Source: Streptomyces sp. NBC_00490
GTDB lineage: Bacteria; Actinomycetota; Actinomycetes; Streptomycetales; Streptomycetaceae
Direction of reading: 5' to 3'
DNA: 64,000 bases
Assembly: GCF_036013645.1 (NCBI RefSeq)
Contig: NZ_CP107869.1
Coordinates: 6,324,001-6,388,000, forward strand
Shown here: positions 21,254-54,638 of the stretch, in pieces
Layout of the letters: the number at the start of each line of letters is the position of its first letter
Numbering within the stretch: position 1 is the first letter of the stretch
Position numbers and translations under genes: made by a program
Notes under the pieces: model-generated
Databases searched by the model: none
Seen by the model: only the letters and a program-made list of their open reading frames with translations
Told to the model about the DNA's origin: nothing

Positions 21254-21282
21254 TTCCCCTCCTCGTCTACGCGCGTTACTGT
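21254..21282 (+). promoter_or_regulatory. bmpA1 promoter with nucleoside-regulon palindrome (site 1)
   Basis: TTCCCC (21254-21259) and TACTGT (21277-21282) stand 17 bp apart as a -35/-10 pair. The spacer holds CTACGCGCGTTA (21267-21278), which matches the CTACGCGCGTAG palindrome at ten of twelve positions. The copy before bmpA2 has exactly the same variant and geometry. Confidence 0.65.
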
Positions 21283-21360
21283 GCGCCGAAATGGCCACCA
21301 TCGGCGGCGCATTGGGGAAGCGGGCCGTTCGACGGGCCGTGGGATGAAGGGGTGCTTGCT

Positions 21361-22443
21361 GTGCGTTCCATATCTCGGAGGACCAGGTTCTCCCAAGCAG
21401 TGGTGGCCGTTTCGGTCATCGCGCTCGCGGCCGTCGGCTGTGGCGAGTCCAGCACGAAGTCCGGCAGCGACGACGCGTCCGAGTCGTCCTCGTCCGGCAC
21501 GTACTCGGGCAAGGGCATCGGCCTGGCGTACGACATCGGCGGCCGTGGCGACCAGTCGTTCAACGACGCCGCCTACGCCGGCTTCCAGCAGGCCGACAAG
21601 GAATTCAAGATGGGCGGCCGGGACGTCCAGCCGAGCGACGGCGAGTCGGAGGCGGACAAGGTCCAGCGTCTGACCGAGCTCGCCAAGGCCGGCTACAACC
21701 CGGTGATCGGCGTCGGCTACATCTACGCGCCGGCCGTCAAGGAGGTCGCCGAGAAGTTCCCGAAGACCACCTTCGGGATCATCGACGACGAGCAGACCAA
21801 GGCCGCCAACGTGGCCGACATGGTCTTCTCCGAGGAGCAGGCCTCCTACCTCGCGGGCGTCGCCGCCGCCAAGACCTCCAAGGCCAAGCACGTCGGCTTC
21901 ATCGGCGGCGTGGACATCCCGCTGATCCACAAGTTCGGCGCGGGCTTCGTCCAGGGCGTCAAGTCCGTCGACCCGAGCATCAAGATCGAGTCGCAGTACC
22001 TGACCGAGACGCCCGCGGAAGGCGGCTTCTCCAGCCCTGACAAGGGCAAGGAGGCTGCCAGCGGTCAGATCGAGAAGGGCGCCGACGTCATCTACCACGC
22101 CGCCGGTCTCTCCGGTCAGGGCGTGATCTCCGAGGCCGCCGCCAAGAAGGTCTGGGCGATCGGTGTCGACTCCGACCAGTACAACCAGGACGCGCTGAAG
22201 GCCTACAAGGACTACATCCTCGGCTCGGCGCTGAAGAACGTCGGCGGCGCGGTCTACGAGCTCGCCAAGTCGGTCCACGAGGGCAAGCCGCTCACCGGTG
22301 TCGTCCGCGGCGACCTGAAGTCCGGCGGCGTGGGCTTCGCCGACTCCAACCCGAAGTACAAGGCCATGACGGACGTCGTCGCGGCCGTCGACAAGGCCAA
22401 GCAGGACATCGTCGACGGCAAGGTGACGGTGAAGACTTCGTAA
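21361..22443 (+). CDS. BmpA-family nucleoside-binding lipoprotein 1
   Basis: A 360-residue substrate-binding lipoprotein: signal sequence with a lipobox-like AVGC near residue 27, then a Ser-rich linker and the Bmp/PnrA fold (GIGLAYDIGGRGDQSFNDAA, GYNPVIGVGYIYAPAVKEVA, FPKTTFGIIDDEQTKAANV, FSEEQASYLAGVAAA, GFIGGVDIPLIHKFGAGFVQ, VWAIGVDSDQYNQDALKAY). The family binds purine and pyrimidine nucleosides outside the membrane for an ABC importer. GAAGGGG precedes the GTG at 21361. It is a tandem paralogue of the next gene; the importer itself is encoded 1.7 kb downstream. Confidence 0.9.
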   Translation: MRSISRRTRFSQAVVAVSVIALAAVGCGESSTKSGSDDASESSSSGTYSGKGIGLAYDIGGRGDQSFNDAAYAGFQQADKEFKMGGRDVQPSDGESEADKVQRLTELAKAGYNPVIGVGYIYAPAVKEVAEKFPKTTFGIIDDEQTKAANVADMVFSEEQASYLAGVAAAKTSKAKHVGFIGGVDIPLIHKFGAGFVQGVKSVDPSIKIESQYLTETPAEGGFSSPDKGKEAASGQIEKGADVIYHAAGLSGQGVISEAAAKKVWAIGVDSDQYNQDALKAYKDYILGSALKNVGGAVYELAKSVHEGKPLTGVVRGDLKSGGVGFADSNPKYKAMTDVVAAVDKAKQDIVDGKVTVKTS

Positions 22444-22453
22444 GGCCCGGCAC

Positions 22454-22469
22454 GGGGCCGAAAGGCCCC
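22454..22469 (+). terminator. Short GC hairpin after bmpA1
   Basis: GGGGCC-GAAA-GGCCCC, 11 bp after the stop, followed by TT. It is the first of two consecutive hairpins. Confidence 0.6.
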
Positions 22470-22501
22470 TTCGTACGCCCGCCCGGGCAGCGTTGCAGCT
22501 C

Positions 22502-22532
22502 GTACGCCCCTTGCCTCCCGCAAGGGGCGTAC
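22502..22532 (+). terminator. Strong perfect 13-bp hairpin between bmpA1 and bmpA2
   Basis: GTACGCCCCTTGC pairs perfectly with GCAAGGGGCGTAC around CTCCC. It separates the bmpA1 transcript from the bmpA2 promoter. Confidence 0.75.
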
Positions 22533-22594
22533 TGCTGTCCGTAGTCTGTCCACCAACTGTGGCCACAGCTCGGTAACGGACCGGACAGAAGGGG

Positions 22595-22623
22595 TTTTCC
22601 GTCTGGTCTACGCGCGTTACGCT
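22595..22623 (+). promoter_or_regulatory. bmpA2 promoter with nucleoside-regulon palindrome (site 2)
   Basis: TTTTCC (22595-22600), a 17-bp spacer, then TACGCT (22618-22623). CTACGCGCGTTA at 22608-22619 lies in the spacer and touches the -10, so a bound regulator would block RNA polymerase. Confidence 0.68.
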
Positions 22624-22674
22624 GCGGCGGAACCAGCGCCTGGTTTGGGCGCTTGCACAAAGGAGTCTCGTTCC

Positions 22675-23721
22675 ATGCGCCGGGTGTCCCGTATCACGAT
22701 TGCAGGCGTTGCAACCGCAGCCCTCGCCCTCACCGCGTCCGCGTGCGGCAGCTCGTCCAGCGAGTCGTCGGGCAGCGACAGCAAGAACCTCGGCCTGGCC
22801 CTGGCGTACGACGTCGGCGGCAAGGGCGACCAGTCCTTCAACGACGCCGCCACCGCCGGCCTGGACAAGGCCGACAAGGAGTTCGGCTACAAGTCCACCG
22901 CCGTCGAGCCGCAGGACGGCGAGTCGGAGGCGGACAAGGTCCAGCGCCTGGAGACCCTCGCCAAGCAGGGCTACAACCCGGTCATCGGCGTCGGCTTCGC
23001 CTACGCGCCGGCCGTCAAGGAAGCCGCCCAGAAGTTCCCGAAGACCACCTTCGGCATCGTCGACGACGAGCAGACCAAGGCCGACAACGTCGCCGACCTC
23101 GTCTTCTCCGAGGAGCAGGCCTCCTACCTGGCCGGTGTCGCGGCCGCCCTGGCCACCAAGTCGAACACCGTCGGCTTCATCGGTGGCGTGGACGTCCCGC
23201 TGATCCACAAGTTCGCGGCCGGCTACAAGCAGGGCGTCGAGGACACCAAGAAGGGCGTCACGGTCAAGGTGCAGTACCTGACCGAGACCGCCGCCGAGGG
23301 TGGCTTCTCCAGCCCCGACAAGGGTGAGAGCGCCGCCGAGGGCCAGATCGACGACGGCGCCGACGTCGTCTACGCCGCCGCGGGCCTGTCCGGCCAGGGT
23401 GTCATCAAGGCCGCCAACGCCAACAAGATCTGGGCGATCGGCGTCGACTCCGACCAGTACAAGCAGGACGCGCTGAAGGCGTACAAGTCCTCGATCCTGA
23501 CGTCCGCCATGAAGAACGTCGAGGGTGCGGTCTACGAGCTCGCCAAGTCCGTCCACGACGGCAAGCCGGAGACCGGCGTCGTCCGCGGCAGCCTCTCCAA
23601 CGGCGGCGTGAGCGTCTCCAACTCCAACCCGGAGTTCGCGAACAACGCCAAGATCCAGGACGCGATCAAGAAGGCGTCCGAGGGCATCAAGAACGGCACC
23701 ATCACGGTGAAGACCTCCTGA
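22675..23721 (+). CDS. BmpA-family nucleoside-binding lipoprotein 2
   Basis: A 348-residue lipoprotein closely related to the preceding gene over its full length (LALAYDVGGKGDQSFNDAAT, GYNPVIGVGFAYAPAVKEAA, FSEEQASYLAGVAAALATKS, GFIGGVDVPLIHKFAAGYKQ, IWAIGVDSDQYKQDALKAYK). The signal peptide ends in a weak lipobox (TASAC). AAAGGAG stands before the ATG. It has its own promoter and operator copy, so the pair looks like a whole-cassette tandem duplication. It probably delivers nucleosides to the permease encoded downstream. Confidence 0.92.
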   Translation: MRRVSRITIAGVATAALALTASACGSSSSESSGSDSKNLGLALAYDVGGKGDQSFNDAATAGLDKADKEFGYKSTAVEPQDGESEADKVQRLETLAKQGYNPVIGVGFAYAPAVKEAAQKFPKTTFGIVDDEQTKADNVADLVFSEEQASYLAGVAAALATKSNTVGFIGGVDVPLIHKFAAGYKQGVEDTKKGVTVKVQYLTETAAEGGFSSPDKGESAAEGQIDDGADVVYAAAGLSGQGVIKAANANKIWAIGVDSDQYKQDALKAYKSSILTSAMKNVEGAVYELAKSVHDGKPETGVVRGSLSNGGVSVSNSNPEFANNAKIQDAIKKASEGIKNGTITVKTS

Positions 23722-24055: not shown

Positions 24056-24084
24056 TATTTAAAGCAGGGGCGCTACGCGCGTAG
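24056..24084 (+). promoter_or_regulatory. ABC-operon leader with perfect regulon palindrome (site 3)
   Basis: CTACGCGCGTAG at 24073-24084 is embedded in a longer inverted repeat (AGGGGCGCTACG and its complement side). TATTTA at 24056-24061 could be the -10, which places this copy just downstream of the promoter, in the message leader before the AAGGAG at 24100. Confidence 0.7.
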
Positions 24085-24113: not shown

Positions 24114-25760
24114 ATCGACGCGTCCAGCAGCCCTCCGCTCACCGCACCGTCGACGATCGCGGTAGAGCTGGCGGGGATCACCAAGCGCTTCCCCGGTGTC
24201 GTCGCCAACCACGACATCCACCTGACGGTCCGCAAAGGCACCGTGCACGCCCTCGTCGGTGAGAACGGCGCCGGCAAGTCGACCCTGATGAAGATCCTCT
24301 ACGGCATGCAGAAGCCGGACGAGGGCACCATCGCGGTCGGCGGCACCCAGGTGAGCTTCGGCAGCCCCGCCGACGCCATCGCCCGCGGCATCGGCATGGT
24401 CCACCAGCACTTCATGCTCGCCGACAACCTCACGGTCCTGGAGAACGTGGTGCTGGGCAGCGAGAAGCTGTACGGCATCGGCGGCGCCGCGCGGAAGAAG
24501 ATCAAGGAGATCTCCGACCGCTACGGCCTCGGCGTCCGCCCCGACGCCCTGGTCGAGGACCTCGGTGTCGCCGAGCGTCAGCGCGTGGAGATCCTCAAGG
24601 TCCTCTTCCGCGGCGCCGACACCCTGATCCTCGACGAGCCGACCGCGGTCCTCGTGCCGCAGGAGGTCGACGCGCTCTTCGCCAACCTGCGCGAGCTCAA
24701 GTCCGAGGGCCTGTCGGTCATCTTCATCTCCCACAAGCTGGGCGAGGTCCTCTCCGTCGCGGACGAGATCACCGTCATCCGCCGCGGCACGACGGTCGGC
24801 ACCGCCGTACCGTCCGAGACCACCCCGCGCCAGCTCGCCGAGATGATGGTCGGCAGCGAGCTCCCCACCCCGGAGACCGCCGAGTCGACCGTCACCGACC
24901 GGGCCGTCGTCGAGGTCAAGAACCTCACCGTGTACTCCTCGGGCGCGCTGACGCTCGGCGAGTCGTCCGCCTCCCTGCTCATGGACGAGGCCGGCGGCGC
25001 CGAGGTCAAGAAGGTCCTCGACGACGTCTCCTTCACCATCCACGCCGGCGAGGTCATGGGCATCGCCGGTGTCGAGGGCAACGGCCAGACCGAGCTCATC
25101 GACGCCCTGATCGGCACCAAGAACGCCGACTCCGGAGCCATCTTCTTCGAGGGCGAGGACGTCACCTCCTGGGCCACCCGCAAGCGCCGCGAGTCCGGCG
25201 TCGGCTACATCCCCGAGGACCGCCACCGCCAGGGCCTGCTCCTGGAGGCCCCCCTCTGGGAGAACCGCATCCTCGGCCACGTCACCGAGACGCCCAACGC
25301 CAAGGGCTTCTGGCTGACCCCGAAGGCCGCCCAGGCCGACACCCGCCGCATCGTCGAGGAGTACGACGTCCGTACTCCCGGCATCGACGTCACCGCGGCC
25401 TCCCTCTCCGGCGGCAACCAGCAGAAGCTGATCGTCGGCCGCGAGATGAGCCACAACCCCAAGTTCCTGATCGCCGCCCACCCCACCCGCGGAGTGGACG
25501 TCGGCGCACAGGCCCAGATCTGGGACCGCATCCGCGACGCCCGTCGCGAGGGCCTGGCCGTGCTGCTGATCTCCGCCGACCTGGACGAGCTCATCGGCCT
25601 GTCGGACACCCTGCGCGTCATCTACAACGGCAGGCTGGTCGCCGACGCCGACCCGGCCACCGTCACCCCGGAGGAGCTCGGCTCCGCCATGACGGGTGCC
25701 GCCACCGGACACCTTGAGCACGTCGAGGACGAGAGCGCCCCGGAGGACGAGGCCCGATGA
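24114..25760 (+). CDS. Nucleoside ABC importer ATPase, double NBD, apparent ATC start
   Basis: A 548-residue ATPase with two nucleotide-binding domains, as in RbsA/NupO-type importers. Domain 1: LAGITKRFPGVVANHDIHL, Walker A ALVGENGAGKST, a degenerate signature AERQRVEILK and LILDEPTAVL. Domain 2 (from about residue 300): GVEGNGQTELIDALIG and signature LSGGNQQKLIVGREM with AAHPTRGVDV in place of a normal Walker B. The homologous sequence begins well before the first in-frame ATG or GTG (24240 onward). An in-frame TAA at 24060 bounds it, and the only start placed after AAGGAG is ATC at 24114. Energises uptake with the next two permeases. Confidence 0.9.
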   Translation: MDASSSPPLTAPSTIAVELAGITKRFPGVVANHDIHLTVRKGTVHALVGENGAGKSTLMKILYGMQKPDEGTIAVGGTQVSFGSPADAIARGIGMVHQHFMLADNLTVLENVVLGSEKLYGIGGAARKKIKEISDRYGLGVRPDALVEDLGVAERQRVEILKVLFRGADTLILDEPTAVLVPQEVDALFANLRELKSEGLSVIFISHKLGEVLSVADEITVIRRGTTVGTAVPSETTPRQLAEMMVGSELPTPETAESTVTDRAVVEVKNLTVYSSGALTLGESSASLLMDEAGGAEVKKVLDDVSFTIHAGEVMGIAGVEGNGQTELIDALIGTKNADSGAIFFEGEDVTSWATRKRRESGVGYIPEDRHRQGLLLEAPLWENRILGHVTETPNAKGFWLTPKAAQADTRRIVEEYDVRTPGIDVTAASLSGGNQQKLIVGREMSHNPKFLIAAHPTRGVDVGAQAQIWDRIRDARREGLAVLLISADLDELIGLSDTLRVIYNGRLVADADPATVTPEELGSAMTGAATGHLEHVEDESAPEDEAR

Positions 25761-26875
25761 AGAAGTTCGACAAGGAGCGACTGCTCCTCGCCGTGGCCGG
25801 ACCGGCCCTGGCGCTCGTCGCGGCGATCCTGCTGACCTCGGTCGTGCTGATCGCCTCGGGCAAGAGCCCGATCGAGCCGTACACGCTCATGCTGGAGCAG
25901 GCCGGCTTCTCCGACGTACAGGTTCTGATCATCAACCAGGCGTCGATGTACTACATCGCCGCCCTCGCGGTCGCCCTCGGCTTCCGGATGAACCTGTTCA
26001 ACATCGGCGTCGACGGCCAGTACCGCCTCGGCGCCATGATGACCGCGGTGGTCGGTGCCCACGTGGCGCTGCCGTCCGCCCTCCAGATCCCGCTGCTGAT
26101 CCTGGTCGGCGCGCTCACCGGCGCCATGTGGGCCGGTATCGCGGGCGTGCTGAAGGTGACCCGGGGCGTCAGCGAGGTCGTCTCGACGATCATGCTGAAC
26201 TCGATCGCCACCAGCCTCATCGGCTACCTCACCCTCACCGACAACTTCGGTGTGCTGGTCGGGGACAACGTCACCACCGGCGTGATGAAGGACTCCGGCT
26301 GGGTGCCCGGCATCAACCTCGGCTCGGACGTCGGCGAGATCTACGGCCTGGTCTTCCTCGCGGTCGCCATGGGCATCGGCTACTGGGCCGTCCTCAACCG
26401 CACCCGCTTCGGCTTCGACCTCAGGGCCACCGGTGAGTCCGAGTCCGCCGCCGCGGCCTCCGGCGTCAACGCCAAGCGCATGGTCCTCACCGCGATGCTG
26501 ATCTCCGGCGCGGTCGCCGGCATCTCGGGCCTGCCGCTGCTGCTCGGCGACGCCCACACCTACAGCCTCAGCTTCCCGGCCGGCCTCGGCTTCACCGCCA
26601 TCGGCATCGCCCTGCTCGGCCGCAACAACCCCGGCGGCATCGCGCTCGCCGCCCTGCTGTGGGCCTTCCTCGACAAGGCGTCCCCCGCTCTCGACTACGC
26701 GACTCCCGAGCCGTACGAGAAGGAGATCGCCACGATCATGCAGGGCCTGATCGTCTTCGCGGTCGTCATCTCCTACGAGGTCGTGCGCACCTGGGGTCTG
26801 CGCCGCCAGCAGAAGCGCGTCGGTGAGGAGCTCGCCGCGGCCGCCGCCAACACGAAGAAGGAGGTGGCGGTCTGA
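25757..26875 (+). CDS. Nucleoside ABC importer permease 1 (NupP/YufP type)
   Basis: A 372-residue permease of the BPD_transp_2 (RbsC-like) family with about ten hydrophobic segments. Typical blocks: YYIAALAVALGFRMNLFNIG followed by DGQYRLGAMM, VSEVVSTIMLNSIATSLIGY, RFGFDLRATGESESAAAASG and FTAIGIALLGRNNPGGIALA. The start overlaps the ATPase stop (ATGA) and the stop overlaps the next start (TGATG), so the three importer genes are translationally coupled. The basic C-terminal tail is cytoplasmic. Confidence 0.92.
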   Translation: MKKFDKERLLLAVAGPALALVAAILLTSVVLIASGKSPIEPYTLMLEQAGFSDVQVLIINQASMYYIAALAVALGFRMNLFNIGVDGQYRLGAMMTAVVGAHVALPSALQIPLLILVGALTGAMWAGIAGVLKVTRGVSEVVSTIMLNSIATSLIGYLTLTDNFGVLVGDNVTTGVMKDSGWVPGINLGSDVGEIYGLVFLAVAMGIGYWAVLNRTRFGFDLRATGESESAAAASGVNAKRMVLTAMLISGAVAGISGLPLLLGDAHTYSLSFPAGLGFTAIGIALLGRNNPGGIALAALLWAFLDKASPALDYATPEPYEKEIATIMQGLIVFAVVISYEVVRTWGLRRQQKRVGEELAAAAANTKKEVAV

Positions 26876-28134
26876 TGAGCACCGCGACCATCGCCAAGGC
26901 GCCGGCGAAGCCCGGAAAGGGCGGCCGCCGCATCTCGCTGCCTGTCGTCCTCCTGATCATCTCGGGCGTCCTCATCCTGACGTCCGTCGTCCGCCTGATC
27001 ACCGGCGCGGACGGCATCACCTCGACCGGCCAGATGTCCACCGCGCTGCGCTCCGCCGTGCCGATCGGGCTCGCGGGCCTCGGCGGTCTGTGGGCCGAGC
27101 GCGCGGGCGTCGTCAACATCGGCCTCGAGGGCATGATGATCCTCGGCACCTGGTTCGGCGCCTGGGCCGGCTACCAGTGGGGCCCCTGGACCGGCGTGCT
27201 CGTCGGCATCATCGGCGGCGCGCTCGGCGCCGTGCTGCACGCCATCGCCACGGTGACCTTCAACGTCAACCACATCGTCTCCGGTGTGGCCCTGAACATC
27301 CTGGCCCTGGGCACCACCCGCTATCTGTCGAAGTACACCTTCGAGGAGGCCCCGCAGGGCTCCTCCAAGCAGTCCCCGCCGATCGAGTCGCTGGGCACCT
27401 TCGACGTCCCGGGCCTGTCCAGCTGGCTGGAGACCCTCAACCAGAAGCACTGGTTCCTGGTCTCCGACATCGCCGGCCTGGTCGGCGGCCTGATCACCGA
27501 CCTGTCGCCGCTCACCGTGGTGGCGGTCGCCCTCGTACCCGCCACCTGGTACGTGCTGTGGCGCACGTCCTTCGGTCTGCGGCTGCGGTCCTGCGGCGAG
27601 AACCCGATCGCCGCCGAGTCGCTCGGCGTCAACGTCTACAAGTACAAGTACATCGCCGTGATCATCTCCGGCGGCTTCGCCGGCCTCGGCGGTGCCTTCC
27701 TGTCGATCGTGTCGTCCAACGTCTACCTCGACGGCCAGACGGCCGGGCGCGGTTACATCGGTCTCGCCGCGATGATCTTCGGCAACTGGATGCCGGGCGG
27801 ACTCGCCCTCGGCGCGGGCCTGTTCGGCTACACCGACAGCCTCAAGCTGCGCGGCGGCACGACCAACGTCCACGCGCTGATCCTGCTCCTGGCGATCCTG
27901 CTGGTGTTCGGCGTCGCGTACCTCATCTGGAAGAAGAAGTACGTCCCCGCCGCCGTCACCGCCGCGATCTCGGCCCTGATGTTCATCTGGTACACCAGCA
28001 CGAACGAGGTCCCGAACCAGGTCGTGACGGCCAGCCCCTACGTCATCACCCTGCTGGTGCTCTCGCTGTCCGCACAGCGCCTGAGGATGCCGAAGGCGGA
28101 CGGACTGCCCTACCGGAAGGGGCAGGGGAAGTGA
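26875..28134 (+). CDS. Nucleoside ABC importer permease 2 (NupQ/YufQ type)
   Basis: A 419-residue second permease of the same family, somewhat longer than usual because of an extra pair of C-terminal hydrophobic segments. Diagnostic blocks: ALRSAVPIGLAGLGGLWAER, GVVNIGLEGMMILGTWFGAW, NHIVSGVALNILALGTTRYL, FGLRLRSCGENPIAAESLGV and GYIGLAAMIFGNWMPGGLAL. It pairs with permease 1 to form the channel. Its stop overlaps the GTG of the cytidine deaminase gene, so import and deamination are produced together. Confidence 0.92.
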   Translation: MSTATIAKAPAKPGKGGRRISLPVVLLIISGVLILTSVVRLITGADGITSTGQMSTALRSAVPIGLAGLGGLWAERAGVVNIGLEGMMILGTWFGAWAGYQWGPWTGVLVGIIGGALGAVLHAIATVTFNVNHIVSGVALNILALGTTRYLSKYTFEEAPQGSSKQSPPIESLGTFDVPGLSSWLETLNQKHWFLVSDIAGLVGGLITDLSPLTVVAVALVPATWYVLWRTSFGLRLRSCGENPIAAESLGVNVYKYKYIAVIISGGFAGLGGAFLSIVSSNVYLDGQTAGRGYIGLAAMIFGNWMPGGLALGAGLFGYTDSLKLRGGTTNVHALILLLAILLVFGVAYLIWKKKYVPAAVTAAISALMFIWYTSTNEVPNQVVTASPYVITLLVLSLSAQRLRMPKADGLPYRKGQGK

Positions 28135-28529
28135 CCACCGCCGACTTCGACTGGGACGCCCTGCGGGAGGTGGCGCGCGAGGCGATGACCCACGCGTACG
28201 CCCCCTACTCGGGCTACCCGGTCGGTGTCTCGGCCCTCGTCGACGACGGCCGTACGGTCTCCGGCTGCAATGTCGAGAACGCCTCCTACGGACTCGGCCT
28301 GTGCGCCGAGTGCGGGCTGGTCTCGGAGCTGCAGCGCACCGGCGGCGGCCGGCTGACGCACTTCACGTGCGTCGACGGCCGGGGCGAGGTCCTCGTTCCC
28401 TGCGGGCGCTGCCGTCAGCTGCTGTACGAGTTCGGCGGCCCGGATCTCCTCCTGGAGACCCCGGCGGGGATCCTGCCGCTGTCCGAGATGCTGCCGCAGG
28501 CCTTCGGACCGGGCCATCTCACCAAGTAA
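28131..28529 (+). CDS. cdd: Cytidine deaminase
   Basis: A 132-residue tetramer-type cytidine deaminase converting (deoxy)cytidine to (deoxy)uridine. The fold starts HAYAPYSGYPVG. The first zinc and catalytic motif is NVENASYGLGLCAECG (Cys-Ala-Glu), and the second is PCGRCRQLLYEFGG. Length and motifs are normal. The GTG at 28131 overlaps the permease stop (GTGA). It feeds uridine and deoxyuridine to the phosphorylase encoded next. Confidence 0.93.
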   Translation: MTTADFDWDALREVAREAMTHAYAPYSGYPVGVSALVDDGRTVSGCNVENASYGLGLCAECGLVSELQRTGGGRLTHFTCVDGRGEVLVPCGRCRQLLYEFGGPDLLLETPAGILPLSEMLPQAFGPGHLTK

Positions 28530-28611: not shown

Positions 28612-29895
<1,284 letters not shown>

Positions 29896-36241: not shown

Positions 36242-36263
36242 CTACGCGCGTAGGAGTTAGAGT
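36242..36263 (+). promoter_or_regulatory. add promoter with perfect regulon palindrome (site 4)
   Basis: CTACGCGCGTAG at 36242-36253 lies just upstream of TAGAGT (36258-36263), a -10 placed 12 nt before the ATG. The palindrome would occupy the -35/-10 spacer. Confidence 0.72.
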
Positions 36264-36269: not shown

Positions 36270-37433
36270 ATGACGAGCCAGACTGACCGGACGGGAACCA
36301 CCCCGAGCTCGGACCAGATCCGCCGGGCACCCAAGGTTCTGCTGCACGATCACCTCGACGGCGGGCTGCGCCCCGGTACCGTCGTCGACCTCGCCCGGGC
36401 CACCGGGTACGCCCAACTCCCCGAGAACGACGCCGACAAGCTCGGCATCTGGTTCCGCGAGGCCGCCGACTCCGGTTCGCTGGAACGGTACTTGGAGACC
36501 TTCTCCCACACCGTCGGTGTGATGCAGACCCGCGAGGCCCTGGTCCGGGTCGCCGCCGAGTGCGCCGAGGACCTCGCCGCCGACGGGGTCGTCTACGCCG
36601 AGGTGCGGTACGCCCCCGAGCAGCACCTCGAAGGCGGGCTCAGCCTCGAAGAGGTCGTCGAGGCCGTCAACGAGGGCTTCCGGGAAGGGGAGCGGCTCGC
36701 CCGCGAGAACGGCCGGCGCATCCGAGTCGGCGCCCTGCTCACCGCGATGCGACACGCTGCCCGCGCCCTGGAGATCGCCGAACTCGCCAACCGCTACCGC
36801 GATCTCGGTGTGGTGGGCTTCGACATCGCGGGCGCCGAGGCCGGCTACCCGCCCACCCGGCACCTCGACGCGTTCGAGTACCTCAAGCGCGAGAACAACC
36901 ACTTCACCATCCACGCCGGCGAAGCCTTCGGGCTCCCCTCGATCTGGCAGGCCCTGCAGTGGTGCGGCGCCGACCGGCTCGGCCACGGTGTGCGCATCAT
37001 CGACGACATCCAGGTCCAGCAGGACGGCTCGGTCAAGCTCGGCCGGCTCGCCTCCTACGTCCGGGACAAGCGCATCCCGCTGGAGCTGTGCCCGAGCTCC
37101 AACCTCCAGACCGGGGCCGCCGACTCCTATGCCGAGCACCCGATCGGGCTGCTGCGCCGGCTGCACTTCCGGGCCACCGTGAACACCGACAACCGGCTGA
37201 TGTCCGGCACGAGCATGAGCCGGGAATTCGAGCACCTGGTCGGGGCATTCGGCTACACGCTCGACGACATGCAGTGGTTCTCCGTCAATGCGATGAAATC
37301 AGCGTTCATTCCTTTCGATGAACGACTGGCCATGATCAATGACGTCATCAAGCCCGGTTATGCCGAGCTGAAGTCCGAATGGTTGTTCCAGCAGACCGCC
37401 TCCACCAGCGGTTCTGTGGCCGAAGAGGGCTGA
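36270..37433 (+). CDS. add: Adenosine deaminase
   Basis: A 387-residue zinc enzyme that deaminates adenosine and deoxyadenosine to (deoxy)inosine. Metal and catalytic residues are visible: [14 protein letters not shown] (HxH), [13 protein letters not shown] (His and Glu), [18 protein letters not shown] and [10 protein letters not shown] (Asp pair region). Length is normal for the actinobacterial type. The message looks leaderless or nearly so. It stands alone between a control region and a terminator. Its product feeds the purine nucleoside phosphorylase at 54 kb. Confidence 0.95.
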
Positions 37434-38927: not shown

Positions 38928-39572
38928 TCAGCCGTCCGTGACCTCCGTCGACGGCGGCTTCGCGCTGGTCGGTTCGGCGCGGACCTCGTCGGTGCACTCG
39001 TAGCGGCGCGGGGCGGCGCCGTCCGGTCCGCCGAGGATGACCGACCCGTCGCCCTCGGCGGCGGCCGAGTCGGAGAACGTGCAGACGATCTGGGCGAGGG
39101 AGGACTTGGCGAGGGCACCCGGCGGGAAGCTCAGCCGGAGGGTGTCCTCGGGGTCCTCGGGGCGCGGCCCGGTCACCGTCATGCCGTCGCGCACGGTCGT
39201 CCGGTACCCGGCGTCCGCCTCGCCGGCCGACGGCGTCGCGGCGAGCTGGTTGAGCAGCTCCTGCGCCACCAGCACCCGCCGCCGGGAGTCCGCCGTACCG
39301 TCCTCGACGCTCACCGTCCGGTCGACGGCCACCAGCGACGAACCGCACAGCAGGAACACCTGCACCGCCAGCCCGCGCGAGGACTGCGCGGAGATGTCCG
39401 GCTCCGAGACGGAGCAGTGCACCCGTGAGGGCGCGGGCCCGAAGTCCGTCGGGACCTCGGTGGCCCGGATACCGCACCCGGTGGCCAGCGCCGCCAGCAC
39501 GGGCAGCGCCAGCAGCCGTCGTACGGTCACGGTGCTCATGGCCCGCCGTCCCCGCCCTCGCGTCACGCTCAT
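38928..39572 (-). CDS. AfsQ-operon lipoprotein
   Basis: A 214-residue lipoprotein. After MSVTRGRGRRAMSTVTVRRL the hydrophobic core ends in the lipobox LAALATGC; the mature part is acidic with several Ser/Thr. The ATG overlaps the afsQ2 stop (ATGA), so it is translationally coupled as the third operon gene, as in S. coelicolor. The position suggests a membrane-anchored accessory or ligand sensor for the AfsQ2 kinase, but this is inference. No enzyme motif seen. Confidence 0.85.
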   Translation of the reverse strand: MSVTRGRGRRAMSTVTVRRLLALPVLAALATGCGIRATEVPTDFGPAPSRVHCSVSEPDISAQSSRGLAVQVFLLCGSSLVAVDRTVSVEDGTADSRRRVLVAQELLNQLAATPSAGEADAGYRTTVRDGMTVTGPRPEDPEDTLRLSFPPGALAKSSLAQIVCTFSDSAAAEGDGSVILGGPDGAAPRRYECTDEVRAEPTSAKPPSTEVTDG

Positions 39573-41119: not shown

Positions 41120-41793
41120 TGAGGCGTGTCCAGCCGGTAGCCGACACCACGGACCGTGCGGATCAGTGTCGGGGACGACGGCACGTCCTCGACCTTGGCG
41201 CGCAGCCGCTGGACACAGGCGTCCACCAGGCGCGAGTCACCGAGGTAGTCGTGCTCCCAGACCAGCCGCAGCAACTGCTGCCGCGACAGGGCCTGGCCGG
41301 GCCGCCGGCTCAGCTCCAGGAGCAGCCTGAGCTCGGTGGGCGTGAGCTGGAGGTCCTCGCCGTTCTTCGTGACGGTCATCGCCGCGCGGTCGATGACCAG
41401 GGAGCCGAAGCTCGCCGCGTCGGTCGACTCGCGTTCCCCGCGCCGCAGCACGGCCCGGATCCGGGCGTCCAGCACCCGCCCCTGGATCGGTTTGACGACG
41501 TAGTCGTCGGCGCCGGACTCCAGTCCGACCACGATGTCGATGTCGTCGCTGCGCGCGGTCAGCAGAATGATCGGCAGCTGGTCCGTGCGCCGGATGCGCC
41601 GGCACACCTCGAAACCATCGATGCCGGGCAGCATCACATCCAGCACGATCAGGTCCGGCCGCTGCTCACGCAGCAGCTTCAGGCCGTCCTCGCCGGTGGC
41701 AGCCGTGGCAACCCGGTGACCCTGGCGCGTCAGAGACAGCTCCAGGGCCGTACGGATGGCGTCGTCGTCCTCGATCAGCAACAGGGAAGGCAC
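41116..41793 (-). CDS. afsQ1: Response regulator AfsQ1 (OmpR family)
   Basis: A 225-residue regulator. Receiver: LLLIEDDDAIRTALELSLTR with phospho-acceptor Asp52 in LIVLDVMLPGIDGFEVCRRI, LLTARSDD and the switch Lys in DDYVVKPIQG. The winged-helix domain begins around residue 125 (LTPTELRLLLELSRRPGQAL, RTVRGVGYRL). The GTG at 41793 is chosen because it gives 225 residues, the length I remember for S. coelicolor AfsQ1; an ATG three codons upstream (41802) is possible. It is divergent from sigQ, with its own type of box in the gap. Confidence 0.95.
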   Translation of the reverse strand: MPSLLLIEDDDAIRTALELSLTRQGHRVATAATGEDGLKLLREQRPDLIVLDVMLPGIDGFEVCRRIRRTDQLPIILLTARSDDIDIVVGLESGADDYVVKPIQGRVLDARIRAVLRRGERESTDAASFGSLVIDRAAMTVTKNGEDLQLTPTELRLLLELSRRPGQALSRQQLLRLVWEHDYLGDSRLVDACVQRLRAKVEDVPSSPTLIRTVRGVGYRLDTPQ

Positions 41794-41866
41794 GGGGCTC
41801 ATTCTGGCCCATGGCGGGGTGCGGTATCGACACCTGTACAGGTACGTACGTGTAGCGCCGCTCTCT

Positions 41867-41882
41867 GTGACCAAGCTGTGTC
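41867..41882 (+). promoter_or_regulatory. AfsQ1-type box, imperfect
   Basis: GTGAC, six bases, then GTGTC: the first half matches GTnAC, the second has one mismatch. It lies 35 bp before the perfect box, nearer afsQ1. Confidence 0.5.
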
Positions 41883-41901
41883 TTCCCTGAGGCCGACCCC
41901 T

Positions 41902-41917
41902 GTGACAGGTCTGTGAC
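41902..41917 (+). promoter_or_regulatory. AfsQ1 box, perfect GTnAC-n6-GTnAC
   Basis: GTGACAGGTCTGTGAC in the afsQ1-sigQ gap fits the published AfsQ1 recognition form exactly. It is about 110 bp before the sigQ ATG and as far from the afsQ1 start, so it may control both. Confidence 0.8.
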
Positions 41918-42024
41918 AGTCGGCGGACACGGTCATGAAGGTGCGAGGGCAAGCTTCTCGGCACAGGCAAGGAAGCACAGCCTGGGCAAGCAGAACACCG
42001 GAAGTCCACGACGGGGGGCGCGAG

Positions 42025-42768
42025 ATGAACACGCTGCACAGCAACAGCACCAGCGCAGTGATCACGCGTCTGCACGACGTGAACGGGGGCCGGGGTTCCG
42101 AGAAGTCCGGCGCCGTGAGCGGGCGGGGGTGCGCTCGCGGCGCTGGGCGTCAGCACACCGCGTACATGACGGTGGTTGACGGCTTCACGGGGGAAGCACA
42201 CGGGGGAAGCGCGTACAGGGAGGACACGGGGGAGCGTCGTTCGCTGTCGGAGGCGGAGTTCACCGCCTACGTCCAGGAGCGCCGCGCCTCCCTGTACGCA
42301 ACCGCCTACCACCTGACCGGTGACCGCTTCGAGGCCGAGGACCTGCTCCAGAGCGCGCTGTTCTCGACGTACCGGGCATGGGACCGGATCAGCGACAAGG
42401 CGGCCGTCGGGGGATACCTCCGCCGGACGATGACGAATCTGCACATCAGCGCGTGGCGCCGCCGCAAGCTGAACGAGTACCCGACCGAGGAACTGCCGGA
42501 GACGCCCGGCGACACGGACGCGATGCGCGGCACCGAGCTGCGTGCGGTCCTGTGGCAGGCGCTGGCCCGGCTGCCCGAACTCCAGCGGACGATGCTGGTC
42601 CTTCGTTACTACGAGGGCCGCACCGACCCGGAGATCGCGGACATCCTCGACATCAGTGTCGGCACGGTGAAGTCCAGCATCTGGCGGTCGCTCCGCCGGC
42701 TGCGCGAGGACGAGGTCCTCAGCTTCGGCCGTGACGAGGAAGACGCCTTCGGGGAGCTTGTCGCCTGA
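42025..42768 (+). CDS. sigQ: RNA polymerase sigma factor SigQ
   Basis: A 247-residue ECF-type sigma factor of the SigE/SACE group. Residues about 75-140 are region 2 (EFTAYVQERRASLYATAYHL, TGDRFEAEDLLQSALFSTYR, VGGYLRRTMTNLHISAWRRR), and residues about 175-235 are region 4 (LWQALARLPELQRTMLVLRY, DPEIADILDISVGTVKSSIW). The first 70 residues are non-conserved and low complexity, so a later start (ATG 42166) is possible. In S. coelicolor sigQ is a target of AfsQ1 and opposes its effect on antibiotic genes. G-rich repeats lie within its 5' part and after its stop. Confidence 0.92.
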   Translation: MNTLHSNSTSAVITRLHDVNGGRGSEKSGAVSGRGCARGAGRQHTAYMTVVDGFTGEAHGGSAYREDTGERRSLSEAEFTAYVQERRASLYATAYHLTGDRFEAEDLLQSALFSTYRAWDRISDKAAVGGYLRRTMTNLHISAWRRRKLNEYPTEELPETPGDTDAMRGTELRAVLWQALARLPELQRTMLVLRYYEGRTDPEIADILDISVGTVKSSIWRSLRRLREDEVLSFGRDEEDAFGELVA

Positions 42769-44633: not shown

Positions 44634-45545
44634 TCAGTAGGACGAGCCGGACGCGCCCAGCGAGCCCGTCGGGTGCCAGACCGTCTTCGTCTCCAGGAAC
44701 GCCGTCATGCGGTCGATCCCCGGAGTCGCCGAATAATCCACAGCCTGTGGACGGAGAACCCGCTTCAGGTTGTCCGCCGCCGCGATCTCCAGCTCCTTCG
44801 CCAGTACGTCATCGGCGCCCGCCAGATCGATCGCGTTGACGTCCTGGTGCGAGGCCAGCGGCGCCGCGATCTCCGCCGTACGGCCGGACAGGACGTTGAC
44901 GACACCGCCGGGCAGGTCGGAGGTGGCCAGCACCTCGCCCAGGGACAGGGCAGGCAGCGGGGACCTCTCGGACGCGATCACGATCGCCGTGTTGCCGGTC
45001 GCGATCACCGGGGCGACGACCGAGACCAGGCCCAGGAAGGACGACTCCTGCGGGGCCAGGACCGCGACCACGCCGGTCGGCTCCGGGGTGGAGAGGTTGA
45101 AGAACGGACCCGCCACCGGGTTGCCGCCACCGACCACCTGGGCGATCTTGTCGGTCCAGCCCGCGTACCAGACCCAGCGGTCGATCGTCGCGTCGACGAC
45201 AGCGGCCGCCTTCGACTTCGACAGCCCCTCGGCGTCGGCCACTTCGCGCACGAACTGCTCGCGGCGGCCCTCCAGCATCTCCGCGACGCGGTAGAGGATC
45301 TGACCCCGGTTGTACGCCGTCGCGCCGGACCAGCCGCCGAACGCCTTGCGCGCGGCGACCACCGCGTCACGGGCGTCCTTGCGGGACGAAAGCGGCGCGT
45401 TCGCCAGCCAGTTGCCCTTCGTGTCGCTCACCTCGTACACCCGGCCGCTCTCGGAACGCGGGAACTTCCCGCCGACGTACAGCTTGTAGGTCTTGAAGAC
45501 CGACAGCCGGTCAAAACGGTCCGTCTTCTCGTTCTTCTCAGACAT
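44634..45545 (-). CDS. Truncated aldehyde dehydrogenase-like protein lacking catalytic Cys
   Basis: A 303-residue protein with the ALDH N-terminal and NAD-binding part (YKLYVGGKFPRSESGRVYEV, APQESSFLGLVSVVAPVIAT, GNTAIVIASERSPLPALSLG, DLPGGVVNVLSGRTAEIAAP) but no catalytic domain: the region with the active-site Cys is missing and a short tail (ETKTVWHPTG) ends it. The sequence is not frameshifted and codon use is normal, so this looks like a maintained short form. It begins inside the end of the full-length ALDH gene (8-bp overlap), suggesting a partner subunit. Confidence 0.85.
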   Translation of the reverse strand: MSEKNEKTDRFDRLSVFKTYKLYVGGKFPRSESGRVYEVSDTKGNWLANAPLSSRKDARDAVVAARKAFGGWSGATAYNRGQILYRVAEMLEGRREQFVREVADAEGLSKSKAAAVVDATIDRWVWYAGWTDKIAQVVGGGNPVAGPFFNLSTPEPTGVVAVLAPQESSFLGLVSVVAPVIATGNTAIVIASERSPLPALSLGEVLATSDLPGGVVNVLSGRTAEIAAPLASHQDVNAIDLAGADDVLAKELEIAAADNLKRVLRPQAVDYSATPGIDRMTAFLETKTVWHPTGSLGASGSSY

Positions 45546-46974
45546 CGAGGTACGCCTCCAGGCCGTGGCGACCGCCCTCGCGGCCGAAGCCCGACTCCTT
45601 GTAACCGCCGAACGGCGAGGTCGGGTCGAACTTGTTGAACGTGTTGGACCAGATCACGCCCGCGCGCAGCTTGCCCGCGACGGCGAGGATCCGCGACCCC
45701 TTCTCCGTCCAGATGCCCGCCGACAGGCCGTACTGGCTGTTGTTGGCCTTGGCGACGGCCTCGTCCGGCGTACGGAAGCTCAGGACCGACAGGACCGGGC
45801 CGAAGATCTCGTCGCGGGCGATGGTGTGCGCCTGGGTGACGTTGGTGAAGAGCGTCGGGGCGAACCAGTAGCCGGAGGAGGGGAGTTCACAGGCCGGGGA
45901 CCAGCGCTCGGCGCCCTCCGCCTCGCCCGCCTCGACGAGCGTGGTGATCCGGGAGAGCTGCTCCGCGGAGTTGATCGCGCCGATGTCGGTGTTCTTGTCC
46001 AGCGGGTCGCCGAGCCGGAGGGTGGAGAGCCGGCGCTTCAGCGAGTCCAGCAGCTCGTCCTGGATCGACTCCTGGACCAGCAGCCGGGAGCCCGCGCAGC
46101 AGACCTGGCCCTGGTTGAAGAAGATGCCGGTGACGATGCCCTCGACGGCCTGGTCGATCGGGGCGTCGTCGAAGACGATGTTGGCGCCCTTGCCGCCCAG
46201 TTCGAGGGTGACCTTCTTGTCCGTGCCCGCAACCTGGCGCGCGATCGCCTTGCCGACCGCGGTGGAGCCGGTGAAGGCCACCTTGTCCACGTCGGGGTGC
46301 TCGACGAGGGCCGCGCCCGCGTCGCCGTACCCCGGAAGGATGTTGACGACGCCCTTGGGCAGACCGGCCTGGCGGCAGATGTCCGCGAAGAACAGGGCCG
46401 ACAGGGGAGTGGTCTCCGCCGGCTTCAGCACGACCGTGTTGCCGGTCGCCAGCGCCGGGGCGATCTTCCACGCCAGCATCAGCAGCGGGAAGTTCCACGG
46501 GATGACCTGGCCCGCGACACCGAGCGGCCTCGGGTTCGCGCCGAAGCCGGCGTGGTCGAGCTTGTCGGCCCAGCCCGCGTAGTAGAAGAAGTGCGCGGCG
46601 ACCAGGGGGAGGTCGGCGTCGCGGGTCTCCTTGATGGGCTTGCCGTTGTCCAGGGTCTCCAGGACGGCCAGCTCGCGGCTGCGCTCCTGGATGATCCGGG
46701 CGATGCGGAACAGGTACTTGGCGCGCTCGGCGCCGGGCAGCGCCGACCACTTCTCGAAGGCCTTGCGGGCGGCCCGCACCGCACGGTCGACGTCCGCCTC
46801 GCCCGCCTGGGCGATCTCGGAGAGGACCTCCTCGGTGGCGGGGGAGACGGTCTTGAAGACCTTGCCGTCCGCCGCCTCCACGAACTCGCCGTCGATGAAC
46901 AGCCCGTAGGAGGGCGCGATGTCGACGACCGAGCGGGACTCGGGTGCCGGTGCGTACTCGAATGCAGATGCCAT
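45538..46974 (-). CDS. Aldehyde dehydrogenase, full length
   Basis: A 478-residue NAD(P)-dependent ALDH. Seen: PWNFPLLMLAWKIAPALATG, NTVVLKPAETTPLSALFFAD, FTGSTAVGKAIARQVAG, the catalytic Glu region VTLELGGKGANIVFDDA and active-site Cys in FNQGQVCCAGSRLLVQES, FGPVLSVLSF. It is cotranscribed with deoC (6 bp upstream) and the short ALDH. DeoC releases acetaldehyde, so a likely job is to oxidise it to acetate. The ATG is followed by a normal N-terminus. Confidence 0.92.
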   Translation of the reverse strand: MASAFEYAPAPESRSVVDIAPSYGLFIDGEFVEAADGKVFKTVSPATEEVLSEIAQAGEADVDRAVRAARKAFEKWSALPGAERAKYLFRIARIIQERSRELAVLETLDNGKPIKETRDADLPLVAAHFFYYAGWADKLDHAGFGANPRPLGVAGQVIPWNFPLLMLAWKIAPALATGNTVVLKPAETTPLSALFFADICRQAGLPKGVVNILPGYGDAGAALVEHPDVDKVAFTGSTAVGKAIARQVAGTDKKVTLELGGKGANIVFDDAPIDQAVEGIVTGIFFNQGQVCCAGSRLLVQESIQDELLDSLKRRLSTLRLGDPLDKNTDIGAINSAEQLSRITTLVEAGEAEGAERWSPACELPSSGYWFAPTLFTNVTQAHTIARDEIFGPVLSVLSFRTPDEAVAKANNSQYGLSAGIWTEKGSRILAVAGKLRAGVIWSNTFNKFDPTSPFGGYKESGFGREGGRHGLEAYLDV

Positions 46975-46979: not shown

Positions 46980-47939
46980 TCAGTCCACCGTCACGTAGTC
47001 GGGGCCGGAGTAACGGCCGGTGGCCAGCTTCTGACGCTGCATCAGTAGGTCGTTCAGGAGCGAGGAGGCGCCGAAGCGGAACCAGTGGTTGTCCAGCCAG
47101 TCCTCGCCGACGGTCTCGTTGACCAGAACCAGGAACTTGATGGCGTCCTTGGTGGTGCGGATGCCGCCGGCCGGCTTCACGCCGACCTGGACGCCGGTCT
47201 GGGCGCGGAAGTCGCGGACGGCCTCCAGCATGAGGAGGGTGTTCGCGGGCGTCGCGTTCACCGCCACCTTGCCGGTCGACGTCTTGATGAAGTCGGCCCC
47301 GGCCAGCATGCCGAGCCAGCTCGCGCGGCGGATGTTGTCGTACGTCGAGAGCTCGCCGGTCTCGAAGATGACCTTCAGACGGGCGCTGGTCCCGCAGGCC
47401 TCCTTCACGGCGGTGATCTCGTCGTACACCTTCAGGTAGTGACCCGCGAGGAACGCCCCGCGGTCGATGACCATGTCGATCTCGTCCGCGCCCGCGGCGA
47501 CGGCGTCGCGCACGTCGGCGAGCTTCACCGCGAGGGCGGCGCGGCCCGCCGGGAAGGCGGTGGCGACCGAGGCGACCTTCACGGAGGAGCCGGCGACGGC
47601 CTCCTTCGCGGGAGCCACCATGTCGGGATAGACACAGACGGCCGCGGTCGCGGGGGTCGTACGGTCGGTCGGGTCGGGGCGGACCGCCTTGGCGCCGAGC
47701 GCCCGGACCTTGCCCGGGGTGTCCGCGCCTTCCAGCGTCGTCAGGTCGACCATCGAGATGGCGAGGTCGATGGCGTACGCCTTGGCGGTCGTCTTGACGG
47801 AACGGGTGCCGAGAGAGGCGGCGCGCGCCTCCAGGCCGACCGCGTCGACGCCGGGCAGCCCGTGGAGGAAGCCACGCAGCGTGCTGTCGGACGCGGCGAC
47901 ATCCGTAGGCGGGTGTGCGGGAGATGCAGTGGTGGGCAT
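46980..47939 (-). CDS. deoC: Deoxyribose-phosphate aldolase
   Basis: A 319-residue aldolase cutting deoxyribose-5-phosphate to glyceraldehyde-3-phosphate and acetaldehyde. The barrel motifs are AAVCVYPDMVAPAKEAVAG, DEIDMVIDRGAFLAGHY, the Schiff-base Lys in ADFIKTSTGKVAVNATP and GVKPAGGIRTTKDA. The N-terminal 60 residues are longer than in E. coli DeoC, as in other actinobacteria. The ATG at 47939 is preceded by an excellent promoter carrying the regulon palindrome; a GTG two codons earlier is possible. First gene of a three-gene operon with the ALDH pair. Confidence 0.94.
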   Translation of the reverse strand: MPTTASPAHPPTDVAASDSTLRGFLHGLPGVDAVGLEARAASLGTRSVKTTAKAYAIDLAISMVDLTTLEGADTPGKVRALGAKAVRPDPTDRTTPATAAVCVYPDMVAPAKEAVAGSSVKVASVATAFPAGRAALAVKLADVRDAVAAGADEIDMVIDRGAFLAGHYLKVYDEITAVKEACGTSARLKVIFETGELSTYDNIRRASWLGMLAGADFIKTSTGKVAVNATPANTLLMLEAVRDFRAQTGVQVGVKPAGGIRTTKDAIKFLVLVNETVGEDWLDNHWFRFGASSLLNDLLMQRQKLATGRYSGPDYVTVD

Positions 47940-47951
47940 GGTCACCAGACG

Positions 47952-47980
47952 AGCATATCTACGCGCGTAGCGGCTGTACA
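47952..47980 (-). promoter_or_regulatory. deoC promoter with perfect regulon palindrome (site 5)
   Basis: On the minus strand TGTACA (47980-47975), 17 bp, TATGCT (47957-47952). CTACGCGCGTAG at 47959-47970 fills the spacer almost exactly, the clearest promoter-operator overlap of the set. Confidence 0.8.
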
Positions 47981-53513: not shown

Positions 53514-53566
53514 GTCGGGTCAACCTCTCGTGTTGGTGTTGCGGGTGAGTGAGGGGTGCGGGGCGG

Positions 53567-53766
53567 TTTTTTCGCCCCCGCCGCCCTTACCCGTTCCCGT
53601 CCCCAGGGGCGTGCCGCCCCTTCGACCCCGCTCCCAGGGGGCGCTGCCCCCTGGACCCCCGCTCCTCAAACGCCGGAGGGGCTGGATCTGCTGACGCCGG
53701 TCGTGGGGGTCTGGGGGCGCAGCCCCCAGGGACGGGACGGGTAGGGGCGGCGGGGGCGAGGAAAAA
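53567..53766. repeat. Interspersed palindromic repeat B, copy 2
   Basis: About 200 bp, same family as the copy at 32.4 kb: T run, CGCCCCCGCCGCCCTTACCC, AGGGGGC hairpins, CTCCTCAAACGCCGGAGGGG, GGTCTGGGGGCGCAGCCCCC and the closing arm GGGTAGGGGCGGCGGGGGCG with an A run. It stands between pnp and the PGM2-like gene and can end minus-strand transcription from pnp, so the mutase gene may have its own promoter. Confidence 0.85.
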
Positions 53767-53776
53767 GCCCCGTCGG

Positions 53777-54601
53777 CTACAGCCGGCTCAGGACCTGCCC
53801 GAGCAGCGCGCCCATCTGCGTCGCCGAGTCGCGGCCCGCCTGGAGGACCTCCTCGTGGTTCAGCGGCTCGCCCGTCATGCCCGCGGCGAGGTTGGTCACC
53901 AGGGAGATACCCAGAACCTCCGCACCCGCCTCGCGCGCGGCGATCGCCTCGAGGACCGTCGACATACCCACGAGGTCCGCACCGATGACCCGGGCCATAC
54001 GGATCTCGGCCGGCGTCTCGTAGTGCGGGCCGGGGAACTGGGCGTAGACGCCCTCCTCCAGCGTGGGGTCGATCTCCTTGCACAGGGCGCGCAGCCGGGG
54101 CGAGTACAGGTCCGTCAGGTCCACGAAGTTCGCGCCGACGATGGGAGACGTCGCCGTGAGGTTGATGTGGTCGCTGATCAGCACCGGCTGCCCGGGACGC
54201 ATGCCCGCGCGCAGCCCACCGCAGCCGTTGGTCAGCACGATCGTCTTGCAGCCGGCCGCCACGGCCGTACGGACGCCGTGCGCGACGGCGGCCACACCAC
54301 GGCCCTCGTAGTAGTGCGTGCGGCCCAGGAAGACCAGGGCCCGCTTCTCGCCGATCTTGTACGAGCGGATCTTGCCGCCGTGACCCTCGACCGCCGGCGG
54401 CGGGAACCCGGGCAGCTCGGTGACCTGGAACTCGGCGTCGGGAACGCCGAGCGCGTCCACGGCCGGAGCCCAGCCGGAGCCCATCACGAGGGCGACGTCG
54501 TGGGTCTCGGCGCCGGTCAGTTCGCGCAGGCGCGCGGCGGCGGCGTCGGCGGCGCCATGCGGGTCGCCCTGGATGTCGTCCGGAAGAAGAGATGCGTTCA
54601 C
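53777..54601 (-). CDS. Purine nucleoside phosphorylase (trimeric)
   Basis: A 274-residue enzyme cleaving (deoxy)inosine and guanosine to the base and (deoxy)ribose-1-phosphate. Motifs: [91 protein letters not shown] and [10 protein letters not shown] with the Asn typical of 6-oxopurine specificity. The GTG start lacks a ribosome binding site and has TACGCT 13 nt upstream. The regulon palindrome lies 25 bp upstream. Confidence 0.94.
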
Positions 54602-54608
54602 GCGGATG

Positions 54609-54638
54609 AGCGTAGCCTCTTCCGGCCTACGCGCGTAG
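54609..54638 (-). promoter_or_regulatory. pnp promoter with perfect regulon palindrome (site 6)
   Basis: CTACGCGCGTAG at 54627-54638 overlaps the expected -35 position of a promoter whose -10 is TACGCT (54614-54609, minus strand). Transcription would start at or next to the GTG. Confidence 0.75.

Follow-up and report, generated by a model that had tools for sequence, protein, structure and literature searches.

A conserved 12-bp palindrome as the probable operator of a nucleic-acid scavenging regulon in Streptomycetaceae

The palindrome in the nucleoside gene cluster

The window analysed here is a 64,000-nucleotide stretch of the 10.8-Mb genome of Streptomyces sp. NBC_00490 (contig NZ_CP107869.1, positions 6,324,001 to 6,388,000), and it contains a cluster of nucleoside genes whose control regions share the 12-bp palindrome CTACGCGCGTAG with the core ACNCGNGT. 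A scan of the window located exact copies at 24073, 36242, 47959 and 54627 and copies with two mismatches at 21267 and 22608, which are the six positions reported in the initial annotation of this DNA. Its statement that no copy lies elsewhere in the window was also borne out, in that no further match with two mismatches or fewer was present. When up to three mismatches were allowed, the window gave 31 matches against 50.8 expected, 25 of them carrying three mismatches, indicating that the weak matches are noise. Genes were named by Pfam and NCBIfam, with cdd recognised by eye only. The families flanking the sites are two Bmp proteins, an ABC ATPase with two permeases, pyrimidine phosphorylase, adenosine deaminase, DeoC, two aldehyde dehydrogenases and purine-nucleoside phosphorylase, in agreement with the earlier view that each copy accompanies a nucleoside gene.

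The two-mismatch copies, both CTACGCGCGTTA on the plus strand, are assigned to two genes for Bmp/PnrA-like lipoproteins (PF02608). The first (21267..21278) overlaps the -10-like hexamer TACTGT (21277-21282) and precedes bmpA1, whose product is nucleoside-binding (21400..22443, plus strand, start approximate); the second (22608..22619) overlaps TACGCT (22618-22623) and precedes bmpA2 (22675..23721, plus strand). At both genes the deviating final TA of the site forms the first two bases of the TANNNT hexamer. The exact copy at 24073..24084 lies 5' of the ABC-cdd-deoA operon on the plus strand, which comprises an ABC importer (24114..28134; ATPase from 24114 or later, its start being uncertain, to 25760, permeases 25757-26875 and 26875-28134), a cdd-like gene (28131-28529) and a deoA/pyrimidine phosphorylase gene (28612-29895). 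The ATPase frame contains no ATG, GTG or TTG from the stop at 24060 to a GTG at 24243, which falls within the conserved N-terminus of the protein. Preceded by a GGAG-like ribosome site, the ATC at 24114 may function as a rare start; alternatives are a sequence error or a mutation.

The remaining exact copies stand close to start codons. At add, encoding adenosine deaminase (36270..37433, plus strand, PF00962), the site (36242..36253) is followed by the -10-like TAGAGT (36258-36263), six bases 5' of the ATG at 36270. The deoC gene for deoxyribose-phosphate aldolase (46980..47945, minus strand, PF01791), with two aldehyde dehydrogenase genes downstream (44634..46974, minus strand, PF00171), has its site at 47959..47970, one base before the -10-like TATGCT (47957-47952, minus strand); the order is TGTACA, a 17-bp spacer holding the site, TATGCT, six bases and the start codon. 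The site at 54627..54638 belongs to pnp for purine-nucleoside phosphorylase (53777..54601, minus strand, TIGR01698 above cut-off), where the -10-like TACGCT (54614-54609, minus strand) ends seven bases before the GTG start. Two genes separate pnp from a DeoR-family regulator gene of SCO4920 type (56883..57836, plus strand), a rival candidate for the regulator whose own promoter lacks the site.

Putative promoter hexamers were read by eye and with a TANNNT scan. At five of the six window sites, a TANNNT hexamer begins 10-24 bases beyond the first base of the site, consistent with the earlier remark that five of six fall in or against the -35/-10 interval. At the 24073 site no such hexamer occurs between 45 bases before and 60 after, and a strict sigma-70 scan of the deoC region found no promoter. 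The hexamer lies 6-7 bases 5' of the start codon at add and pnp, and we infer that the spacing at add, deoC and pnp is that expected of leaderless transcripts. Since the site overlaps promoter-like hexamers, the geometry is likely that of a repressor competing with RNA polymerase, and activation instead of repression is still conceivable.

Occurrence in the genome and across the family

Across the 10.8-Mb genome, CTACGCGCGTAG occurs exactly five times, four of them in the window. The fifth copy (C1:1487885) overlaps the opening codons of add2, another gene for adenosine deaminase, and G050 and G187 each have it, without mismatch, at the corresponding position. At up to two mismatches the genome gave 303 forward matches, fewer than the 720 of the reversed pattern, and this degree of looseness is therefore uninformative genome-wide. 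The pattern CTACGCGCGTNR is found at 24 distinct places, compared with 9 forward and 5 reverse matches for the reversed control. A random spread, or one over unrelated promoters, had been named beforehand as the outcome of a genome scan that would refute the regulon; instead, all five exact copies are at nucleoside genes and 17 of the 24 CTACGCGCGTNR places were assigned to nucleic-acid or phosphate scavenging.

The 17 include add, add2, deoC, pnp, bmpA1, bmpA2 and the ABC operon. Beyond these nucleoside genes, an ExeM/NucH-like nuclease is preceded by two sites 44 bp apart and its paralog by one, and further targets are a 2',3'-cyclic-nucleotide phosphodiesterase/3'-nucleotidase-like gene and one for a 5'-nucleotidase-like protein. 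The genes for a secreted RNase and a class B acid phosphatase each start 11 bp 3' of a site, PhoX (a general phosphatase) is also in the set, and in a GmrSD_C-domain nuclease-like gene the site lies inside the first codons, coinciding with those for YARR. The set is completed by purS, the products PurS and PurQ having been identified by eye. The nuclease and nucleotidase genes extend past the fetched 3-kb loci, leaving the NCBIfam scores of these partial genes below cut-off (ExeM/NucH 105 and 62 of 300 bits; 3'-nucleotidase 321 of 486), while their Pfam phosphoesterase and 5'-nucleotidase domains pass. The initial annotation had described a nucleoside-utilisation regulon; that the nucleoside genes hold the sites stands, and the scope has to be widened to secreted nucleases, nucleotidases and purSQL.

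The signal thins with any single mismatch. Ten of the 29 one-mismatch places are linked to scavenging, including a second 3'-nucleotidase-like gene (L023) and a gene of the NCS2-type xanthine/uracil permease family (L017). We did not count other one-mismatch places 5' of genes, namely oligopeptide ABC loci (L073, L076), NlpC/P60 genes (L008, L072), peptidases M23 (L020) and M17 (L013), an rpoB-like gene recognised by eye (L025) and others. A CN-hydrolase gene with CTACGGGCGTAG (L079) was considered as a pyrimidine-base enzyme and set aside, its best NCBIfam match being N-carbamoylputrescine amidase at 261 of 410 bits.

The site is conserved across Streptomycetaceae and rare outside. All 19 genomes of the genus contain exact copies (73, the reversed control giving 8), as do 15 of 16 genomes representing one other family genus each (44 against 6), which makes 117 against 14 for the 35 family genomes combined. 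Outside the genus, 9 of 177 genomes held 11 exact copies, and the reversed control was often commoner there; four genomes from other families of the order had one copy in total. The three copies of G075, a genome outside the genus, have no neighbours with a match to a window protein or, by eye, with a link to nucleosides, and the single copy of G196 has no recognisable gene beside it.

Among close relatives, we compared the best 80 of 570 loci of the DeoR-family gene (79 titled Streptomyces, one Actinobacteria bacterium; judged by this gene, the nearest named locus is that of Streptomyces canus V4I20 at 99%). The pnp site is exact in all 78 loci with usable upstream DNA, 36-37 bases before the matched start in 73 of them. 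The deoC site is exact in 57 of 58, with one mismatch in the remaining one, and always 25 bases before the start. The flanks of the site are kept within pnp or within deoC and differ between the two. These 80 loci (1.416 Mb) hold 135 exact copies, as many as the 78 pnp and 57 deoC sites together; the loci are related, and the copies are not independent events. Among 59 permuted palindromes of equal composition, the mean was 0.07 copies and the largest number 3. In DNA of 70% G+C a G+C-rich palindrome can turn up repeatedly, and most loose matches are noise, so a chance, composition-driven 12-mer without regulatory meaning was considered. Together with the outgroups, the reversed controls and the permuted palindromes rule this out, and the unbroken exactness of the pnp site likewise makes such an origin vanishingly improbable.

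Conservation extends to distant members of the family. In eight divergent genera the site is kept with 0-2 mismatches at pnp (8/8) and deoC (8/8), it is exact at add in all six where add lay in the stretch, and it is kept at bmpA in all five with enough upstream DNA; at bmpA of G288, the 152 upstream bases covered contain no site. The purS site was found 310-400 bases before purQ in 19 of 24 family genomes (missing in G276, G279, G283, G284 and G289) and in none of four outgroups. The 3'-nucleotidase-like gene, called at E 1e-90, has the site with 1-2 mismatches 34-107 bases upstream in all 15 family genomes that have the gene, nine of the 24 being without such a match. At three of these promoters (L213, L216 and L224, from G063, G016 and G277) a second operator-like copy lies 14-15 bases away, which suggests stacked binding. 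For the ExeM-like nuclease, 12 of 18 family genomes and neither of two outgroups carry the site; it is differently placed in two more and absent in four. As a general target, purNH was rejected for Streptomyces (0/8 genus genomes); its site is exact in G288 and G289 and has one mismatch in G285 and two in G278.

The proposed scavenging regulon

The sites, their conservation, their position near promoter-like hexamers and the gene families beside them can be read directly from the sequence. Taken together, they make it probable that CTACGCGCGTAG is the operator of one repressor for a nucleic-acid scavenging programme of Streptomycetaceae. The programme would run from secreted DNases and RNase, cyclic-nucleotide/3'- and 5'-nucleotidases and phosphatases to a Bmp-type nucleoside ABC importer, deaminases, phosphorylases, deoC with two aldehyde dehydrogenases, and purSQL. 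A protein bound over or between the -35 and -10 elements of bmpA1, bmpA2, add, deoC and pnp would block transcription, as would one bound near the transcription start of the ABC operon, and an intermediate of nucleoside breakdown would release it; the effector could be ribose, deoxyribose, a nucleoside or a purine base.

Several observations weigh against a programme of this breadth. Seven of the 24 strong CTACGCGCGTNR sites have no visible link to scavenging: four (L016, L018, L074 and L075) fall in coding sequence, one lies 414 bp before an NlpC/P60 gene (L008) and two (L331 and L332) are without annotation. The same holds for 19 of the 29 one-mismatch places, and at purNH only four of 24 family genomes have the site. 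It is not evident why a simple repressor that responds to nucleosides as inducers would control purine synthesis along with nucleoside breakdown, and the purS site could serve a divergent Lsr2-like gene. In the window genome this site sits between purS and the Lsr2-like gene, as recognised by eye.

Two secreted-looking proteins of unassigned function from different genera, with ABC_transp_aux matches below cut-off, also have the site upstream (L080, one mismatch, at 51 bases; L152, exact, at 39 bases) and are possible extra members of the regulon.

Candidate regulators

Among 41 distinct site variants, pre-selected at two mismatches or fewer, the central CG is unchanged in all. A3 changes once and T10 never, positions 4 and 9 change only from C to T (or G to A), positions 5 and 8 take any base, and the ends are loose. 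LacI operators are mostly even palindromes (1251 of 1303 transcription factors) with a central CG (1173 factors), according to the sections cited of PMC4052901. The site has both features, and because the central CG is invariant we regard it as a LacI-like operator; the regulator is probably a LacI-family protein.

We surveyed LacI genes in five genomes (matches covered: G000, the window genome, 49; G284 21; G286 8; G196 6; G278 7 of 30). The eight genes of G286, a genome with few LacI members, were the starting point for comparing six shared groups. In this family NT-6 is associated with residue 20, Arg-20 going with G, and NT-5/NT-4 with residues 15/16, as given in the part of PMC2978694 consulted. 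Groups B, D and F were discarded as the regulator, as their Arg-20 is associated with G at NT-6, where the motif has C; group B has a different own operator (TGTAATCGATTCCA-like), and group F is present in an outgroup. An RbsR/PurR-like protein of SCO4158 type has Thr-15, Ala-16 and Tyr-20 (numbering by eye) and adjoins glnR, the neighbour containing a GlnR domain; SCO4158 itself is placed downstream of glnR in the text seen of PMC9739823. Ten family genomes were found to encode the protein, at 67-84% of that from G286, and it is not among the six LacI genes of the outgroup G196 (best 37%). Its promoter carries a weak copy of the site (2-3 mismatches) over the -10-like TAGACT at the same place in 8 of the 10 genomes, an equally good match occurring in 85 of 4000 random 60-bp windows. 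Another LacI gene of the window genome (L369; G000:C1:7235900-7237950) has a perfect 16-bp palindrome GTCGAAGCGCTTCGAC upstream with a second partial copy, likely an autoregulatory operator. It too has Tyr-20, and the upstream GTCGAAGC-GCTTCGAC has C at NT-6 as in the motif, which is one example.

The DeoR-family protein near pnp could instead govern the same regulon, sensing phosphorylated (deoxy)ribose as E. coli DeoR does, which we consider rather unlikely. It is the favourite by position but has no site at its own gene, and for this reason we rank the SCO4158-type protein first. The DeoR-family gene lies in the same stretch as lpdA and pnp in all eight divergent genera and in G116 and G152, a linkage that may be plain synteny. 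It has an ortholog in 84 of 84 genus genomes and 121 of 121 family genomes over 17 genera. The boundary of the gene is also that of the motif, as the best listed matches in family f39 show 38-44% identity and nothing matches at 1e-30 in f38 (one genome). HTH_DeoR and the DeoRC sensor domain place it in the DeoR superfamily, with a DNA-binding domain almost invariant across nine genera. Its promoter, however, has a site with one mismatch or fewer in 0 of 80 loci and with two in 2 of 80, and on NCBIfam it scores 72.8 bits for E. coli DeoR (cut-off 244), its best match being AgaR at 185.7 (cut-off 260). We are aware of no operator of a DeoR-family protein whose central CG is invariant, and counted this against it. 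In one genome (G343:C2:5624202-5625063) the gene matches in two overlapping pieces, possibly a frameshift or a sequencing error.

A third regulator (GntR, XRE, another LacI or DeoR paralog, or other) may bind the palindrome, which we regard as less likely than not. Our survey covered the LacI family in five genomes, one of the 19 HTH_DeoR matches of the genome, that in the window, was followed, and the family-wide LacI groups C (Asn-20) and E (Asp-20) would still qualify. By eye, no transcription-factor gene was recognised directly downstream of the 24 strong sites, so that autoregulation singles out no regulator. Against a third regulator, both named candidates fit reasonably, and the Arg-20 of groups B, D and F disfavours these paralogs.

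The SCO4158-type protein is our best candidate, though a tentative one, and some points count against it. LacI operators of the even type are 16-22 nt long in the sections cited (PMC4052901), whereas just 12 bp are common to the targets here. The gene lies at a great distance from the cluster, and limited stretches of G280 (9) and G289 (2) yielded no copy of it. Half of the weak copy at its promoter is the -10-like hexamer itself, the copy is missing in G284 and G279, and matches with three mismatches or fewer occur in 148 of 800 random 330-bp windows. Autoregulation is frequent, not universal, for LacI-family regulators. The part of PMC9739823 available describes SCO4158 as abundant under phosphate limitation, its authors suggesting glnR as a target; such abundance would suit a scavenging regulator. 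We propose, with some reserve, that a single LacI-type repressor beside glnR may couple secreted DNase/RNase and nucleotidases, nucleoside import, sugar and base catabolism and purSQL throughout the family, serving the use of soil DNA and perhaps the recycling of DNA from dying hyphae during development.

A regulon under a LacI- or DeoR-type repressor is of a known kind. The LacI-type nucleoside/purine regulators (PurR and CytR of E. coli, UriR, and bifidobacterial RbsR paralogs) share the even palindrome with central CG. In the portions cited of PMC4746261 and PMC4052901, RbsR3 and UriR control nucleoside use and PurR controls purine synthesis. Unlike theirs, the operator here is the 12-bp CTACGCGCGTAG with C at NT-3 and NT-6, and one series of sites spans secreted nucleases through deoC and purSQL. 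The candidate LacI protein of the window genome (L397) lies far below every NCBIfam curated cut-off for these families (RbsR 184.7/382, PurR 177.1/501, CytR 163.9/436, UriR 118.5/550 bits). The E. coli DeoR regulon comprises deoCABD and nupG and is not known to include secreted nucleases or pur genes, and its operator TGTTAGAA-TTCTAACA differs from the site. It resembles the system predicted here in the repressor-type control of deoC, phosphorylases and nucleoside uptake and in having a DeoR-family gene, which in our cluster is not an equivalog of E. coli DeoR. Bacillus thuringiensis NupR, a GntR/HutC nucleoside permease regulator, likewise controls nucleoside transport and is of another family and host, as far as the text seen of PMC9430930 goes.

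In the accessible parts of the open-access literature (subscription journals lie mostly outside it, as does RegPrecise), we found no description of the motif or regulon and no regulator for nucleic-acid use in Streptomyces, in line with the earlier note, which gave no named regulator for this site. Papers matching a text search for the literal motif were, among the matches listed, all unrelated by title. Streptomyces are known to secrete nucleases and to recycle hyphae that have lysed. A paper dealing with SCO4158 and pigment reportedly exists. In the sections seen, PMC7244524 touches on nuclease secretion and hyphal recycling and gives SCO4901 as adenosine deaminase, SCO4914 is deoxyribose-phosphate aldolase (PMC3293853), and SCO4920 is listed among glucose-affected regulators (PMC4848846) and as the centre of an inferred network module (PMC3224704). 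As far as searched, what is new is the operator, its reach from secreted nucleases as far as purSQL and its connection with two core regulators that are orphans. With the operator defined and two candidate proteins named, the question can be tested directly. The regulon would give a role to the orphan regulators of SCO4158 and SCO4920 type, links nucleotide scavenging to purine synthesis and could provide a repressor system on apparently leaderless promoters.

Rfam at gathering cut-offs gave no match in the window. Within the nucleoside cluster, a histidine kinase, response regulator and sigma-factor gene set lies at 38928-42768, which from its position we take to be the AfsQ2-AfsQ1-SigQ locus; the kinase and regulator were present in 8 of 8 divergent genera and the sigma gene in 7 of 8.

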